Assembly: GCA_012517205.1 (NCBI GenBank)
Contig: JAAYVL010000088.1
Coordinates: 1 to 64,000, forward strand
Length of the DNA: 64,000 bases
Origin: Verrucomicrobiota bacterium
GTDB lineage: Bacteria; Verrucomicrobiota; Verrucomicrobiia; Limisphaerales; UBA8199
Direction: 5' to 3'
Below the pieces are notes generated by a model. That model was given only the letters and a program-made list of their open reading frames with translations. It was not told the DNA's origin and ran no database searches. A program made the position numbers and the translations under genes. How positions within the stretch are numbered: the stretch's first letter is position 1; each line of letters begins with the position of its first letter. Below are positions 8,328 through 59,545 of this stretch, one piece after another.

Positions 8328-10418
8328 TTGCCGGCCATGCACCTCGCGCAAAACAGGCTCCGCACGATCTTAATCGGCGTGATGCTGGGCGGTATCACGC
8401 TGGCCGCGTTCTGGCCGGTAATCCATAACGATTTCATCATCTACGACGATGCCGCCTACGTGACCGAGAATCCCCAGGTGCTGGCCGGGTTGACGTGGCG
8501 GCAGGCGGGCTTGGCCTTCCGAACGAGCTGCGCCGGGAACTGGCATCCGCTAACCGTGCTCTCCCACATGCTGGACGTGCAACTTTTCGGGCTGAACCCG
8601 GCAGGCCATCATCTGACCAGCCTGCTGCTGCACGCCGCCAACGCGGTGCTGCTGTTTTTAGTGCTCCGACGAGCCACGCAACCCTCCAACCCCCAACTTC
8701 CAACCTCCCGCCTCGAATCTCGCCCCCCACCGGCCCTCGACCCTTTCTGGCTCTGCGCAATGGTGGCCGGGCTCTTTGCCCTGCACCCATTGCGCGTGGA
8801 ATCGGTCGCGTGGGTTGCCGAGCGAAAAGACGTGCTCAGCGCTTTCTTCTTCCTGTTGACGCTTTGGGCCTACGTGCGGAATGCGGAGGGCCAGACCCCG
8901 GAGTCCACAACCCGCGCCCCACTCTACGCAACCCGCTTCTACGTTCTCGCGCTGGTCTTCTTCGCGCTTGCGCTCATGAGCAAGGCAATGGTGGTCACGC
9001 TCCCGTTTATCCTGCTTTTGCTCGATTATTGGCCCTTGCGGCGGCTCCAGTTCTCATCCCCTTGCTGGCTTTCGACTCTCCGTCGCTTGCTCCTGGAGAA
9101 GCTCCCTTTCTTTGCGCTGACAGCCCTCTTCACCGGAGTGGCGTTTCTCCTGCTGCGGCAGGCGGGCGCCACGCAGGAGCTGCCGGGCGTTGGATGGGGG
9201 CACCGCCTGGCCCGCATCTTTGTCGGCTACGAACAGTATCTCGCCAAAACGATCTGGCCCGTTGACCTTGCGCTTCCCTACCCGCGCCTGGCCGAAGTGT
9301 CCCTGGGATTGGCGCTGGCCGGGGCGGCCGCGGTCATCAGCCTGTCTTTTATAGCCATTTGGCACGGACGGCGGCGCCTCTATGCGCCGGTCGGCTGGTT
9401 TTGGTTCCTGGGCATGCTAATCCCGGTGATCGGGCTTGTTGGCGTTGGCGCGCAAACCATCGCGGACCGTTATACCTACCTTCCTTCCATAGGGCTTTCC
9501 ATCGTGGCCGCCTGGGGCCTGGGCGAAATCGCCGGACGCCCCCGGTTGAGGCTTCCGATGATTGGGGCCTCCGTTCTGGCGCTGGCGGCGTTGCTGCTGG
9601 CCACCCGCCACCAGTTGCGCTATTGGCAAAACAGCGAAGCGCTCTTCCGTCACGCCCTGGCGGTCACCGACGTCAATCCGCTTGCGCATTCCCTGCTTGC
9701 ATCCGTCCTGGCGGAAGCCGGAGAACTGGAGAAAGCCGAAACCCATTGCCGCGAAGCCCGGCGGCTCATGCCGAATTGCGCGGAGACAGAGATTCTGTAT
9801 GCCCGGGTGCTGGCTCGCAGAAACAAGTTCGAGGAAGCTATCGCGGTCCTCTCGCAGCTCTTGCGGCACAGTTCCGTGGCCCCCGAAGCCCATTTCAACC
9901 TGGGCGCTATCTTTGGCGAGCAAGGGGCTGCGTCCCAGGCCATGAACAGCTACCGCCAAGCCCTGGCGTTGAAGCCGGATTTCCCCGAGGCATACTTCGG
10001 CCTCGCCGCCCTCTTTACCCAGCAGGGTGACACCGCCGCCGCGATTGAGGAATACTACCAGGGCCTGCGCAGGCAACCGGACGCCCCCGAGGCTCTCAAC
10101 AACCTTGCCTGGATCCGTGCCGCCAGCGCCAATGCCGCCTTCCGCAACGGCGAAGAAGCCGTTCGCCTCGCCTCGCGTGCCTGTGAGCTAAGCGGGCGGC
10201 AAAATCCCGTCATGCTTGGCACCCTGGCCGCTGCCTATGCCGAAGCCGGGCGCTTTGACGACGCGGTCGCGACCGCGCAAGAGGCCTGCAACATCGCCTT
10301 GGCCAAAGGACAGGGCGACCTAGCGAAAAAGAACCAGGCCCTCCTGGAACTCTATCAATCCCGCCGCCCGTATCATGAGTCCCTCGAACCGTTTCCGGCC
10401 TCGCCGTCGCACCTTTAG
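8328..10418 (+). CDS. integral membrane glycosyltransferase-like protein with C-terminal TPR repeats (TMTC-like)
   Basis: FWPVIHNDFIIYDDAAYVTENPQV, GLFALHPLRVESVAWVAERKDVLSAFFFLLTLWAY, many TM segments, then TPR units (PEAHFNLGAIFGEQGAASQAMNSYRQALALKPDFPEAYFGLAALF). Confidence 0.8.
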   Translation: MPAMHLAQNRLRTILIGVMLGGITLAAFWPVIHNDFIIYDDAAYVTENPQVLAGLTWRQAGLAFRTSCAGNWHPLTVLSHMLDVQLFGLNPAGHHLTSLLLHAANAVLLFLVLRRATQPSNPQLPTSRLESRPPPALDPFWLCAMVAGLFALHPLRVESVAWVAERKDVLSAFFFLLTLWAYVRNAEGQTPESTTRAPLYATRFYVLALVFFALALMSKAMVVTLPFILLLLDYWPLRRLQFSSPCWLSTLRRLLLEKLPFFALTALFTGVAFLLLRQAGATQELPGVGWGHRLARIFVGYEQYLAKTIWPVDLALPYPRLAEVSLGLALAGAAAVISLSFIAIWHGRRRLYAPVGWFWFLGMLIPVIGLVGVGAQTIADRYTYLPSIGLSIVAAWGLGEIAGRPRLRLPMIGASVLALAALLLATRHQLRYWQNSEALFRHALAVTDVNPLAHSLLASVLAEAGELEKAETHCREARRLMPNCAETEILYARVLARRNKFEEAIAVLSQLLRHSSVAPEAHFNLGAIFGEQGAASQAMNSYRQALALKPDFPEAYFGLAALFTQQGDTAAAIEEYYQGLRRQPDAPEALNNLAWIRAASANAAFRNGEEAVRLASRACELSGRQNPVMLGTLAAAYAEAGRFDDAVATAQEACNIALAKGQGDLAKKNQALLELYQSRRPYHESLEPFPASPSHL

Positions 10419-10479
10419 CCCTGAAGAAGGCTATTCGCATCCGATGCCTGGCCAGGGCTTTTCTCGCGCCTGACTTATC

Positions 10480-11130
10480 CGACGACGTTTCAACCTCCAA
10501 GGGAGCGATAGATAGCGCACGGTTGGACTACCCAACTGCAACGTTTCAGACAAGGCATTCATGAAGCCAGATGGCATCTGGATACTCGTTCTCCCTTGAA
10601 AAACTGCCTCCCGCCAACTTCATATTCACAACCAACTGTTTTTCAATAGTTTACAACCCATCCCACCGCGCCATCTCGTCGTTTCGGCCCATCCCGGCAT
10701 CCGCTGCCATTACCCAGATGCCTTGGATATACCCTACCCCCAGGTCGTGTACAAGGGGTGTACAAGGGATGCTCATCGGGGGTCCATGGGTTTTTAGCTG
10801 GTACATCCGATGAGCATCCCTTGTACACCCCTTGTACACGGCTTGAAGGCAGGGGGCGTCTATGGAGTGCCGAAGTCGGCAGGATTCGGATTCCTCCTCC
10901 ATTTTACCCCTCTCCGCTTGCGTAAGCCGTTGATTTTACAAGCGAACGGCGTTTAGGATTCAGCGGCGATGCCGCTGATTTCGCTAAACAGGGGAACGGC
11001 GGGGCTATGGTCGGGGCGGTCAGGGCTGTCCTGGCTTGGATGGTATGCAGGCGGGCAGGCGAACCACCCCATTGAATCGTTTTGGGTTAGGGAGGCGAGT
11101 ATTCGTCAGCCAAGGCGCCGATGCTCCCCT
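10480..11130. repeat. dispersed composite intergenic repeat, copy 1 (palindrome core 10746-10840)
   Basis: Perfect 34-bp inverted repeat CGTGTACAAGGGGTGTACAAGGGATGCTCATCGG (10746-10779) / its reverse complement (10807-10840), 27-nt loop; flanks (CCCTTGAAAAACT...CCTCCCGCC upstream, TTGATTTTAC.AGCGAA downstream) shared with copies 2 and 3. Confidence 0.9.
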
Positions 11131-25559: not shown

Positions 25560-26330
25560 TTTAGTTCGACCTCACAGAACGTGTAAGTCCCTGATTTTAT
25601 GGGCGAACGTCATTCAGAATCCAGTAGCCATGCCATTGAATCCGCCAATCAAACGGTTCGTTGAGGCTTTCCGCTGGCCTGTCATGTCTGTTTCGACTCT
25701 AATGGAGCTAGGGCGCACGGTTGGACTATGCAACGTCAACGTTTCAGATAACGCATTCGTGAAGCTAAAAGCCATTCGGGCCCCCGCCCACCCTTGAAAA
25801 ACTCCCTCCCGCCAGCCCCAGACTTATAACTAACTGTTTTTACTGAGCTTATTAGTCGCCACCCCGCCCTCTCCCATCGTTTCGGTCTTTCCAGGCATCC
25901 GGCCCTATTACCCGGCTACCGTAGAAATACCCTGCCTCTACGCCGTGTACAAGGGGTGTACAACGGATGCTCATCAGGAGTTTATGGGGTTTTGGCTGGT
26001 ACACCCGATGGGCATCCCTTGTACACCCCTTGTACACGGCCTGATGGCAGGGTAAATCCAAGGCAGGGCTATAGTCCGCCGAAGGCGGCATAATTCAGGC
26101 TCTGCGTCTATTTTACCCATCTCTACACCTAAACCATTGATTTTACCGGCGAAAGATCCGGAATTCAGCAGCCACGCCCTTGAATTTGCGAAATAAAGTG
26201 TTCGCCAAAGCTACAACTTGAGCGGTCAGGCTCGCTCAAGCTCCGATGAAGCAAGGGCAGACGGTAGAACTGCCCAACTGAATCGTTACGATTTAGGGGA
26301 AATATCTACCCGTCAGAATTATCGAAAGGT
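25560..26330. repeat. dispersed composite intergenic repeat, copy 2 (palindrome core 25942-26040)
   Basis: 34-bp arms 25942-25975 and 26007-26040 (2 mismatches); flanking unit (TGATTTTA..GCGAA...GGGCGCACGGTTGGACT) present on both sides. Confidence 0.88.
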
Positions 26331-49426: not shown

Positions 49427-50004
49427 AGGAAGTTCCACCTTTTCAGGGATTGTTGCACACATGTACGACCATTATTCGTTTTCTTTAATTCACCGCTCAG
49501 CAGGAAAAATACCGCGTCCCCGCGAAAAGACAAGCTGAACCTGCCTTTTTCCTGAACACGCCCGCACGGCCTCCGGCCAACGAAAGCTACTCTCCCGCAT
49601 CGGCCGGCCCGACGCGCAATTCCACTGATTACGGCAGTTTTTGCGAGCAATTCCAACGCCAAGCCTCTCACGCAGCCGCGCCTTTGCCCGGGGCTGGATG
49701 ACTTCAAGTCCGGAAACTGCGTTTGGAGAACTATCGCGCGGCGACTGGCGGACGGAAAATCGAGGCCAAGGCACCGGAGCGGAGCCAGTGAGCCGGGCGA
49801 GGGAGGGAAAACCCGAAAGACGCGAAATAGCGCGATCGCCTCATCCATTCCGTTCAACTTCACCCACCAAACGCTTCATTGGGGCCACGTCCCGGACGGC
49901 CATGCCCGCCCCGATGCCGATGGTACGATGGCCCTTGCGCGGCCTGCCCAACGGAACCCCTCCAAATAAGCCAGCCGCGACGCCAAAAGCCCCCCAAACG
50001 CTTA

Positions 50005-50520
50005 CCTTTCCTTGAAAAACCACTCCCGTCCAGCCTTGGATTTATAACTAACTGTTTTTACGCAACTTATCCTTTTCCCCACCGTTCCGCCTCATCGTCT
50101 CGGCCTTTCCAAGCCCCTCTTCCCATTATCCAGATACCGTGGATATACCCTGTCCATAGGCCGTGTACAAGGGGTGTACAAGGGATGCCCATCGGGTGTA
50201 CCAGCTAAAATCCTATGGACTCCCGGTGAGCATCCCTTGTACACCCCTTGTACACGGCCCGAAGGCAGGGTAAATCCAAGGGATGTTTCGGATGCGCCGA
50301 AGGCGGCAGGGTTCAGGTTTTGGCCTTATTTTGCCCCTCTTTATGCCTAAATCCTTGATTTTACCAGCGAAAGGCTCGGGATTCAGCAGCCATACTCTCG
50401 GATTCGCTAAACCAAGGGTTCGTCGAGGCTGCCGCTTGGGCGATCAAGCCCGCCCAGGATACGATGAAACGAGGGCGGACGGTTGAACTCCCCAACTAAA
50501 CCGTTCTGCCCCCGGGATGT
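50005..50520. repeat. dispersed composite intergenic repeat, copy 3 (palindrome core ~50159-50260), inverted loop
   Basis: Arms GGCCGTGTACAAGGGGTGTACAAGGGATGCCCATC / ...GGTGAGCATCCCTTGTACACCCCTTGTACACGGCC; same-orientation flanks as copies 1 and 2, loop reverse-complemented. Confidence 0.9.
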
Positions 50521-57960: not shown

Positions 57961-59457
57961 TCAAGCCGTCTGCAATTCGCGGACGAGGAATGGCGCAAAC
58001 TCATCATGCAGGTGCGGCGGGATGCGGGCTTTAAAGCGGGCGGTCTGGCCGTTGTAATCCCGCTCGACCACCTGCCCCACCTCATGCAGCCGCGCAATGA
58101 CGCCCGCCTGCTCGTGCGGCACGGAAAGCTCCATGAACTCGCGGAGCGGGCGCAACTGGCTGCTCAACTCCGCCAGCAGGGCGGGAATCCCCTCGCCCGT
58201 CACCGCCGAAATGGCCGCCGCGTGCGGATACCGCTCCTGGAAACCGGCCAGCACCTCCGGGCGCTCCGCGAGCTGGTCCAGCTTGTTCAGCGCCATCACC
58301 GTCGGCTTGCCGTCGGCGCCGATTTCCCGCAGCACCGCGTTCACCGCCTGGATCTGCGCCTCGGCGTCCGGGTGGCTGGCATCCACCACATGCAGCAGCA
58401 AGTCCGCCTGGACCACCTCCTCGAGCGTCGCCTTGAAGGCCGCCACCAGCCCGTGCGGCAGCTTGCGAATGAACCCGACCGTATCCGTCACCAGCACGTT
58501 CTGATTCGTCGGCAGCCGCAGCCGCCGCGTGGTGGGATCCAGCGTGGCGAACAACTTGTCCTCCGTCAGCACCGTCGCGCCGGTCAGGGCGTTGAGCAGG
58601 GTGGACTTGCCCGCGTTGGTATAGCCCACAATCGAGGCCAGCGCCCAATGGTTGCGCTGGCGCTGGTTGCGCTGGAGCGAACGCTGGCGGCGCACCACTT
58701 CCAGCTCGCGCGCCAGCCGGGCGATGCGGTCCTGCACCCGCCGGCGGTCGGTCTCCAACTGCGTCTCGCCCTCGCCGCCGCGCATGCCGATGCCGCCCTT
58801 CTGCCGCGACAAGTGACCCCAAAACCGCGTCAGCCGCGGCAGCAAATGCCGCAGTTGCGCCAGCTCGATCTGGAGCTTGCCCTCGCGCGTGCGCGCGCGC
58901 GCGGCAAAGATATCCAGGATGAGCGCCGTGCGATCCAGAATCTTGCAGCCAAAGACCCGCTCCAAATTGCGGCTTTGCGCCGGGGTCAGCTCATCGTCGA
59001 AAATAACGGTATCCACCTCCGCCTGCTGGCAGTAGCGGGCGAACTCCTCCGCCTTGCCCTTGCCGATATACGTCGCCGCGCACGGAGCCGCCACCTTTTG
59101 CAAACCATCCCCCACCACGCTGCCCCCGGCGGTGGCAGCCAGCTCGGCCAGCTCCTTGAGCGAATCGTCCACCTCGGCCCCTCGCCGCGATTTCAGCTCC
59201 ACCCCGATGAGGAAAACTCTTTCCGTCCGGTGGTTCCTGTTCTCGACCAGTGCTTTCAACTCAGCGCGTCTGCCGCATTCGCTCGCTTTCCATCTGTTAT
59301 CGGGGGAAACATACCACGTCCGGGCGCGGTAGCAAAGCACCAAAGAGCGGCAAATCCCGCCCATTCCCCCATTCCGGCCCAGACTCGCATCCAAACCCGT
59401 CCCACCCGCCCCGGCCAGCCTGACGCTCCTATTAGGCCGTGTACAACGGGTGTACAA
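57961..59457 (-). CDS. hflX: GTPase HflX (true start downstream of the ORF start, near 59.25 kb)
   Basis: TYIGKGKAEEFARYCQQAEVDTVIFDDELTPAQSRNLE, GEGETQLETDRR, VGYTNAGKSTLLNALTGA, LATLDPTTRRL, DTVGFIRKLPHGLVAAFKATLEE; the ORF N-terminus lies in repeat copy 4. Confidence 0.93.
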   Translation of the reverse strand: MYTRCTRPNRSVRLAGAGGTGLDASLGRNGGMGGICRSLVLCYRARTWYVSPDNRWKASECGRRAELKALVENRNHRTERVFLIGVELKSRRGAEVDDSLKELAELAATAGGSVVGDGLQKVAAPCAATYIGKGKAEEFARYCQQAEVDTVIFDDELTPAQSRNLERVFGCKILDRTALILDIFAARARTREGKLQIELAQLRHLLPRLTRFWGHLSRQKGGIGMRGGEGETQLETDRRRVQDRIARLARELEVVRRQRSLQRNQRQRNHWALASIVGYTNAGKSTLLNALTGATVLTEDKLFATLDPTTRRLRLPTNQNVLVTDTVGFIRKLPHGLVAAFKATLEEVVQADLLLHVVDASHPDAEAQIQAVNAVLREIGADGKPTVMALNKLDQLAERPEVLAGFQERYPHAAAISAVTGEGIPALLAELSSQLRPLREFMELSVPHEQAGVIARLHEVGQVVERDYNGQTARFKARIPPHLHDEFAPFLVRELQTA

Positions 59458-59545
59458 CGGAGGCTCAAAGGGAGCTCATGCTTGTTTTCCGTGTTCTCCT
59501 GCCGCGCTCCCGATGTACTCCCCTTGTACATGGCTTGAAAGGATG
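59430..59545. repeat. degenerate copy 4 of the dispersed palindromic repeat
   Basis: GGCCGTGTACAACGGGTGTACAACGGAGGCTCA ... CTCCCCTTGTACATGGCTTGAAAGG; arms diverged and loop replaced. Confidence 0.65.

Follow-up and report, generated by a model that had tools for sequence, protein, structure and literature searches.

Palindromes that are dispersed through the genome of a Verrucomicrobiota bacterium carry a loop that is inverted between their arms relative to flanks that are themselves unflipped. This inversion is well supported since, in the genome analyzed, flank-oriented loops fall into two classes of 29 and 16 copies with opposite orientation, the consensus loop of either class is exactly reverse-complementary to that of the other, a second family of flanks has the same split, and one orthologous locus is flipped. 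About 143 such palindromes are present in the genome, as counted from an arm pattern. The reading that we favor, with moderate confidence, is that the spacers of these intergenic palindromes are inverted slowly and passively by template switching at hairpins, without a dedicated recombinase; gene conversion between copies is possibly mixed in with this process.

The window, that is, the whole stretch of DNA that was analyzed, comprises 64,000 nt of a draft genome of 3.6 Mb that is 93% complete. The palindrome that the original prediction had placed at 50159-50262, as the third of three copies, is present as it was described. The features of the window are as follows, with palindromes given no strand.

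10515-11090, + strand: long repeat of the first family with copy 1, right end approximate
10741-10846: palindrome of copy 1, loop orientation +
25713-26287, + strand: long repeat of the first family with copy 2
25939-26044: palindrome of copy 2, loop orientation +
49931-50505, + strand: long repeat of the first family with copy 3, collinear with copies 1 and 2
50134-50199, + strand: extended inverted repeat of copy 3, left half, 66 nt long and with 83% complementarity to the right
50159-50262: palindrome core of copy 3, two arms of 11-nt units with the loop opposite to that of copies 1 and 2
50193-50223, - strand: inverted loop (spacer) of copy 3, about 31 nt, TTTTAGCTGGTACA on the - strand
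50219-50284, - strand: extended inverted repeat of copy 3, right half, pairing with the left (repeat finder)
59433-59538: fourth palindrome copy, eroded, with a weak hairpin, unrelated flanks, and a loop polarity that is not assignable

The arms are composed of 11-nt units in the order GTGTACAAGGG GTGTACAAGGG ATGCTCAYCGG, with one extra unit in a few copies, and they pair perfectly over about 30 nt around a spacer of about 30 nt. When folded as single-stranded DNA, the hairpin of copy 3 is predicted to have an energy of -47.8 kcal/mol (z = -13.4). Inverted arms of about 34 bp had been proposed; the arms are indeed present, but they are not limited to that length and reach about 66 nt each at 80-83% complementarity. 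The claim that the loop of copy 3 aligns with the others as its reverse complement is borne out at 27 of 31 positions for copy 1 and 25 of 31 for copy 2. Additionally, GCTGGTACA occurs three times in the window, where 0.24 occurrences are expected, on the + strand in copies 1 and 2 and on the - strand in copy 3. A search of the window with Rfam covariance models gave no match at the gathering score, and no match was found in the viral contigs searched.

Copies 1-3 are the centers of a longer direct repeat (D1-D3) of about 550 nt, the ends of which are placed to about 10 nt. Since the palindromes sit inside this direct repeat, their outer flanks are co-oriented; the DNA around copy 3 is collinear with copies 1 and 2, in agreement with the prediction that the outer flanks keep the same direction in all three copies. 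On either side of the core, the repeat takes in about 230 nt (left) and about 248 nt (right), and BLAST alignments show roughly 70-80% identity. A search with the 575 nt that surround copy 3 gives 82 matches, of which about 40 are separate loci and the rest mostly the core on the opposite strand. At its right end, the long repeat has a module of about 150 nt (TTTTACCGGCGAAAGG...AATCGTT; window positions 10380-11090, 25600-26300, and 49931-50510) that weakly recurs upstream of the left end, resembling direct terminal repeats. For the right flank, the consensus structure from RNAalifold is almost entirely unpaired.

The orientation of the loop relative to the flanks was compared across a larger set of copies. 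Among copies matched at both flanks, the two loop orientations are represented by 20 and 13 copies, respectively, and an initial set of 42 copies with flanks divides into 30 versus 12. In these 42 copies, where the loop alignment holds, the reverse-complement relation of the two class consensuses covers the whole core; the flip affects the loop positions of practically every copy and spares the columns of the flanks beyond about -21/+119. The asymmetric arm bases had been said to be swapped together with the loop, and positions 29, 32, 66, and 69 do flip in most copies but not in all, which locates the points of exchange within the arms. A second long repeat family of about 520 nt, unrelated to the first, has the same palindrome at its center (L106, L118, L120, L121, and L122). 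Its loops divide likewise, with L106, L118, and L120 opposed to L121 and L122, and the closest opposite pair has 84% flank identity. The proposed inversion between the arms thus has strong support from the enlarged set of copies, from two flank families, and from one orthologous locus.

Across the whole genome, a 21-nt arm pattern has 144 forward and 142 reverse matches, and a reversed-pattern control has 0. At least 45 of the approximately 143 palindromes lie inside the 550-nt repeat. Of the genome total, 92 distinct copies, a few of them from other assemblies, were collected and examined, and among these the core is found with several different flanks. Contigs with near-identical flanks belong to bins labeled Verrucomicrobiota and to one Pseudomonadota bin. 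The palindrome family was not found in 12 relatives, in which a search recovered only a small number of arrays, either arm-like or of tandem 11-nt units, in G008, G010, and G012. In G008, from another genus of the same family, four loci (L075, L077, L079, and L081) have tandem arrays of three to four of these 11-nt units without a palindrome; the units are ATGCACAAGGG GTGTACAAGGG ATGCTCAAGGG, followed by sequence common to those loci. No SbcD match above the curated cut-off was detected in this genome or in the 12 relatives (13 genomes of the order), with 13 of 14 control genomes giving a match. Given that the relatives also have no match, absence of SbcD was rejected as the reason for palindromes being in this genome only.

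Comparison of orthologous loci, which had been suggested as a check, showed that one of five orthologous or strain pairs differs in loop orientation. The four pairs that agree have identities of 99.6% (L037/L105), 98.7% (L020/L023), 93.4% (L106/L118), and 93.3% (L013/L107). The starts of the contigs with L020 and L023 (G000:C43:1-768 and G000:C72:1-767) are 97% identical, and these two are probably strain versions of one locus within one bin. The pair that differs is L011 and L104, the latter from another assembly, which have opposite loops within 1.3 kb of 95% identity that includes sequence beyond the repeat. The outer arm nearby is far more diverged than the flank and has an 11-nt indel. 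It should be noted that only half of the L104 loop is visible because the loop is interrupted by an IS21-type element that carries IstA- and IstB-like genes (L104:1316-3861, JAKQDQ010000120.1); this element may target hairpin loops. Further, no correlation of orientation with flank divergence was observed, in line with the original prediction, although the flank tree has a star-like shape and is poorly resolved. A minimum of 8 changes of orientation is needed on this tree (bootstrap 7-9; mean of 10.5 when shuffled), but its well-supported branches require only one.

Genes were called on both sides of 62 copies, with the use of our own codon-usage score, and these comprise 21 divergent, 35 tandem, and 6 convergent pairs. 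The neighbors of copy 3 are a polysaccharide-export (SLBB) gene and a gene for an MgsA/RarA-type AAA ATPase. A role as terminator is rejected, as no T-run was found and few of the gene pairs are convergent (6 of 62). The placement would suit either a function upstream of genes or palindromes that are tolerated where intergenic spaces are long. It is possible that the palindromes form a putative protein-binding array upstream of genes; the orientation of the loop itself is probably without function.

In yeast, template switching between the arms of inverted repeats is reported to result in arm homogenization and in reversible inversion of the spacer (PMC8604942). By analogy, a replication fork that meets one of the hairpins described here could have its nascent strand switch onto the complementary arm, copy through the spacer, and then switch back inside the other arm. 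Such a double template switch would leave the spacer flipped and would occasionally rewrite one arm from the other. Flipping of this kind would be passive, slow, and reversible, with no need for a dedicated recombinase. We infer the template switch itself from the spacer inversion and the arm signatures, by their likeness to those in yeast.

Several observations on the arms bear on this mechanism. First, arms within a copy are more alike than arms across copies in the 5-8 nt beside the invariant part, a likeness that 0-2 of 10,000 permutations reach. Second, the orthologues L106 and L118 have a paired change on both arms. Third, L034, L044, L056, and L173 have copy-specific outer arms that are common to both sides of one copy. 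These are signs of arm rewriting or homogenization, although the within-copy likeness may be partly due to copy relatedness or to selection for pairing. A process at hairpins is favored because the exact inversion of the spacer, the within-copy likeness and paired change of the arms, and the signatures of template switching in yeast coincide; the very stable hairpin also counts in its favor. Against it stand the shorter spacers of the known cases (2-5 bp in yeast and 4-24 bp in plastids), the single orientation change that supported branches of the flank tree force, and the fact that gene conversion between copies accounts for much of the same data.

Ectopic gene conversion in an inverted register is the main rival, a possible explanation that we nonetheless consider the less probable. 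With palindromic arms that hardly differ among the approximately 143 copies, a donor core could pair with a recipient either way and paste in its loop either way, which would also homogenize the cores. Consistent with this, identity among paralogues is 96.5% in the arms and 88% in the loops, with far more divergence in the flanks, and the loops of orthologues differ at 4 of 31 and 2 of 31 positions, values equal to or above the flank differences. However, the copy-specific outer arms of the four copies named above suggest events within a copy. A Mantel test of loop against flank distances, on which gene conversion might have found support, was without power given that the left and right flanks are also uncorrelated with each other. 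Gene conversion may act alongside template switching.

Inversion of the spacer by a site-specific recombinase, as in the phase switches known as invertons, is a further reading, to which we give a small chance only. The long conserved inverted repeats and the presence of both loop orientations would be expected of such a system, and there are 8 tyrosine recombinase domains in the genome. This number, however, falls within the 2-43 of the 12 relatives that lack the repeat family, and no serine recombinase match was found in the genome, while at least 6 of the 12 relatives have one (7 of the 13 genomes overall). Thus neither type of recombinase tracks the repeat, the serine type being undetected in this genome and the tyrosine type not enriched. 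Loop direction is random with respect to tandem genes (17 versus 18), a search around copy 3 found no promoter-like (sigma-70-type) site, and four of the five orthologous or strain pairs share their loop orientation. The spacer of about 30 nt also seems short for synapsis of two sites, being below the length that site-specific synapsis normally needs. The small invertible element of the original prediction is therefore not supported as a recombinase switch, given that no serine recombinase was detected, that no promoter was found near copy 3, and that loop directions do not follow those of the genes.

That the two orientations are an artifact of assembly, with the loop threaded arbitrarily through identical palindromic arms, is unlikely. 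The assembly is a draft of metagenome type, many copies lie near contig ends, and arms that are common to about 143 copies could lead an assembler with short k to thread a loop wrongly. Nevertheless, the sequence becomes unique among the collected copies within a median of 19 nt and a maximum of 73 nt from the loop center, so ordinary short reads resolve the direction of the loop. Moreover, three orthologue pairs from separate assemblies concur in orientation, and the asymmetric arm bases travel with the loop. It is very unlikely that some 140 tiny hairpins are inverted by an unrecognized factor acting on the arms of 11-nt units, which would give each locus a heritable, switchable state. Least probable of all is that the core moved, as a small REP- or MITE-like mobile element of its own, into existing repeats in either direction, as its several different flanks and the two Y1 (RAYT-type) transposases of the genome might suggest: such transposases are found in 13 of 13 genomes searched, the two here are not beside the listed copies, no empty site was noticed among the 550-nt repeat matches, nearly all of which hold the core, and insertion would have to have occurred at the same point, in both directions, in about 45 diverged repeats.

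If passive inversion by template switching is correct, a single bacterial genome holds more than 40 natural replicates of one inverted repeat with related flanks, and both the speed and the symmetry with which spacers invert and arms are rewritten would thus be directly measurable in a bacterium. Short invertible spacers in bacterial genomes would not necessarily be recombinase switches, and differences in a loop from strain to strain could be one event and not many substitutions.

Among known systems, REP elements, with their GTAG/CGTC palindromes, are likewise dispersed, extragenic, and present in about 100 or more copies (PMC3733652). Their stems of 5-13 bp and loops of 2-20 are, however, exceeded by the arms of about 30 nt or more and the loop of about 30 nt described here, where the feet are variable, a constant GTAG is lacking, and the palindrome lies within a 550-nt repeat. 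Invertons and phase-variable promoters of gut bacteria share both orientations of a segment between inverted repeats (PMC11892184), whereas the palindromes have no matching recombinase, no promoter that was found, and a very short spacer, and their two orientations are seen in assembled sequence. The inverted repeats of yeast that undergo template switching are closer, with exact inversion of the spacer, signs of arm rewriting, and reversibility, but their spacers are of 2-5 bp and lie in coding sequence (PMC8604942), as opposed to about 30 nt in intergenic and repeated palindromes. Similarly, the small (flip-flop) inversions of plastids have a loop that stands both ways between inverted arms, are mostly intergenic and recurrent on the tree, and are explained without invoking a recombinase (PMC6824564). 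Unlike the approximately 143 dispersed bacterial copies, with loops of about 30 nt and arms of at least 30 nt, they occur at single loci with loops of 4-24 bp.
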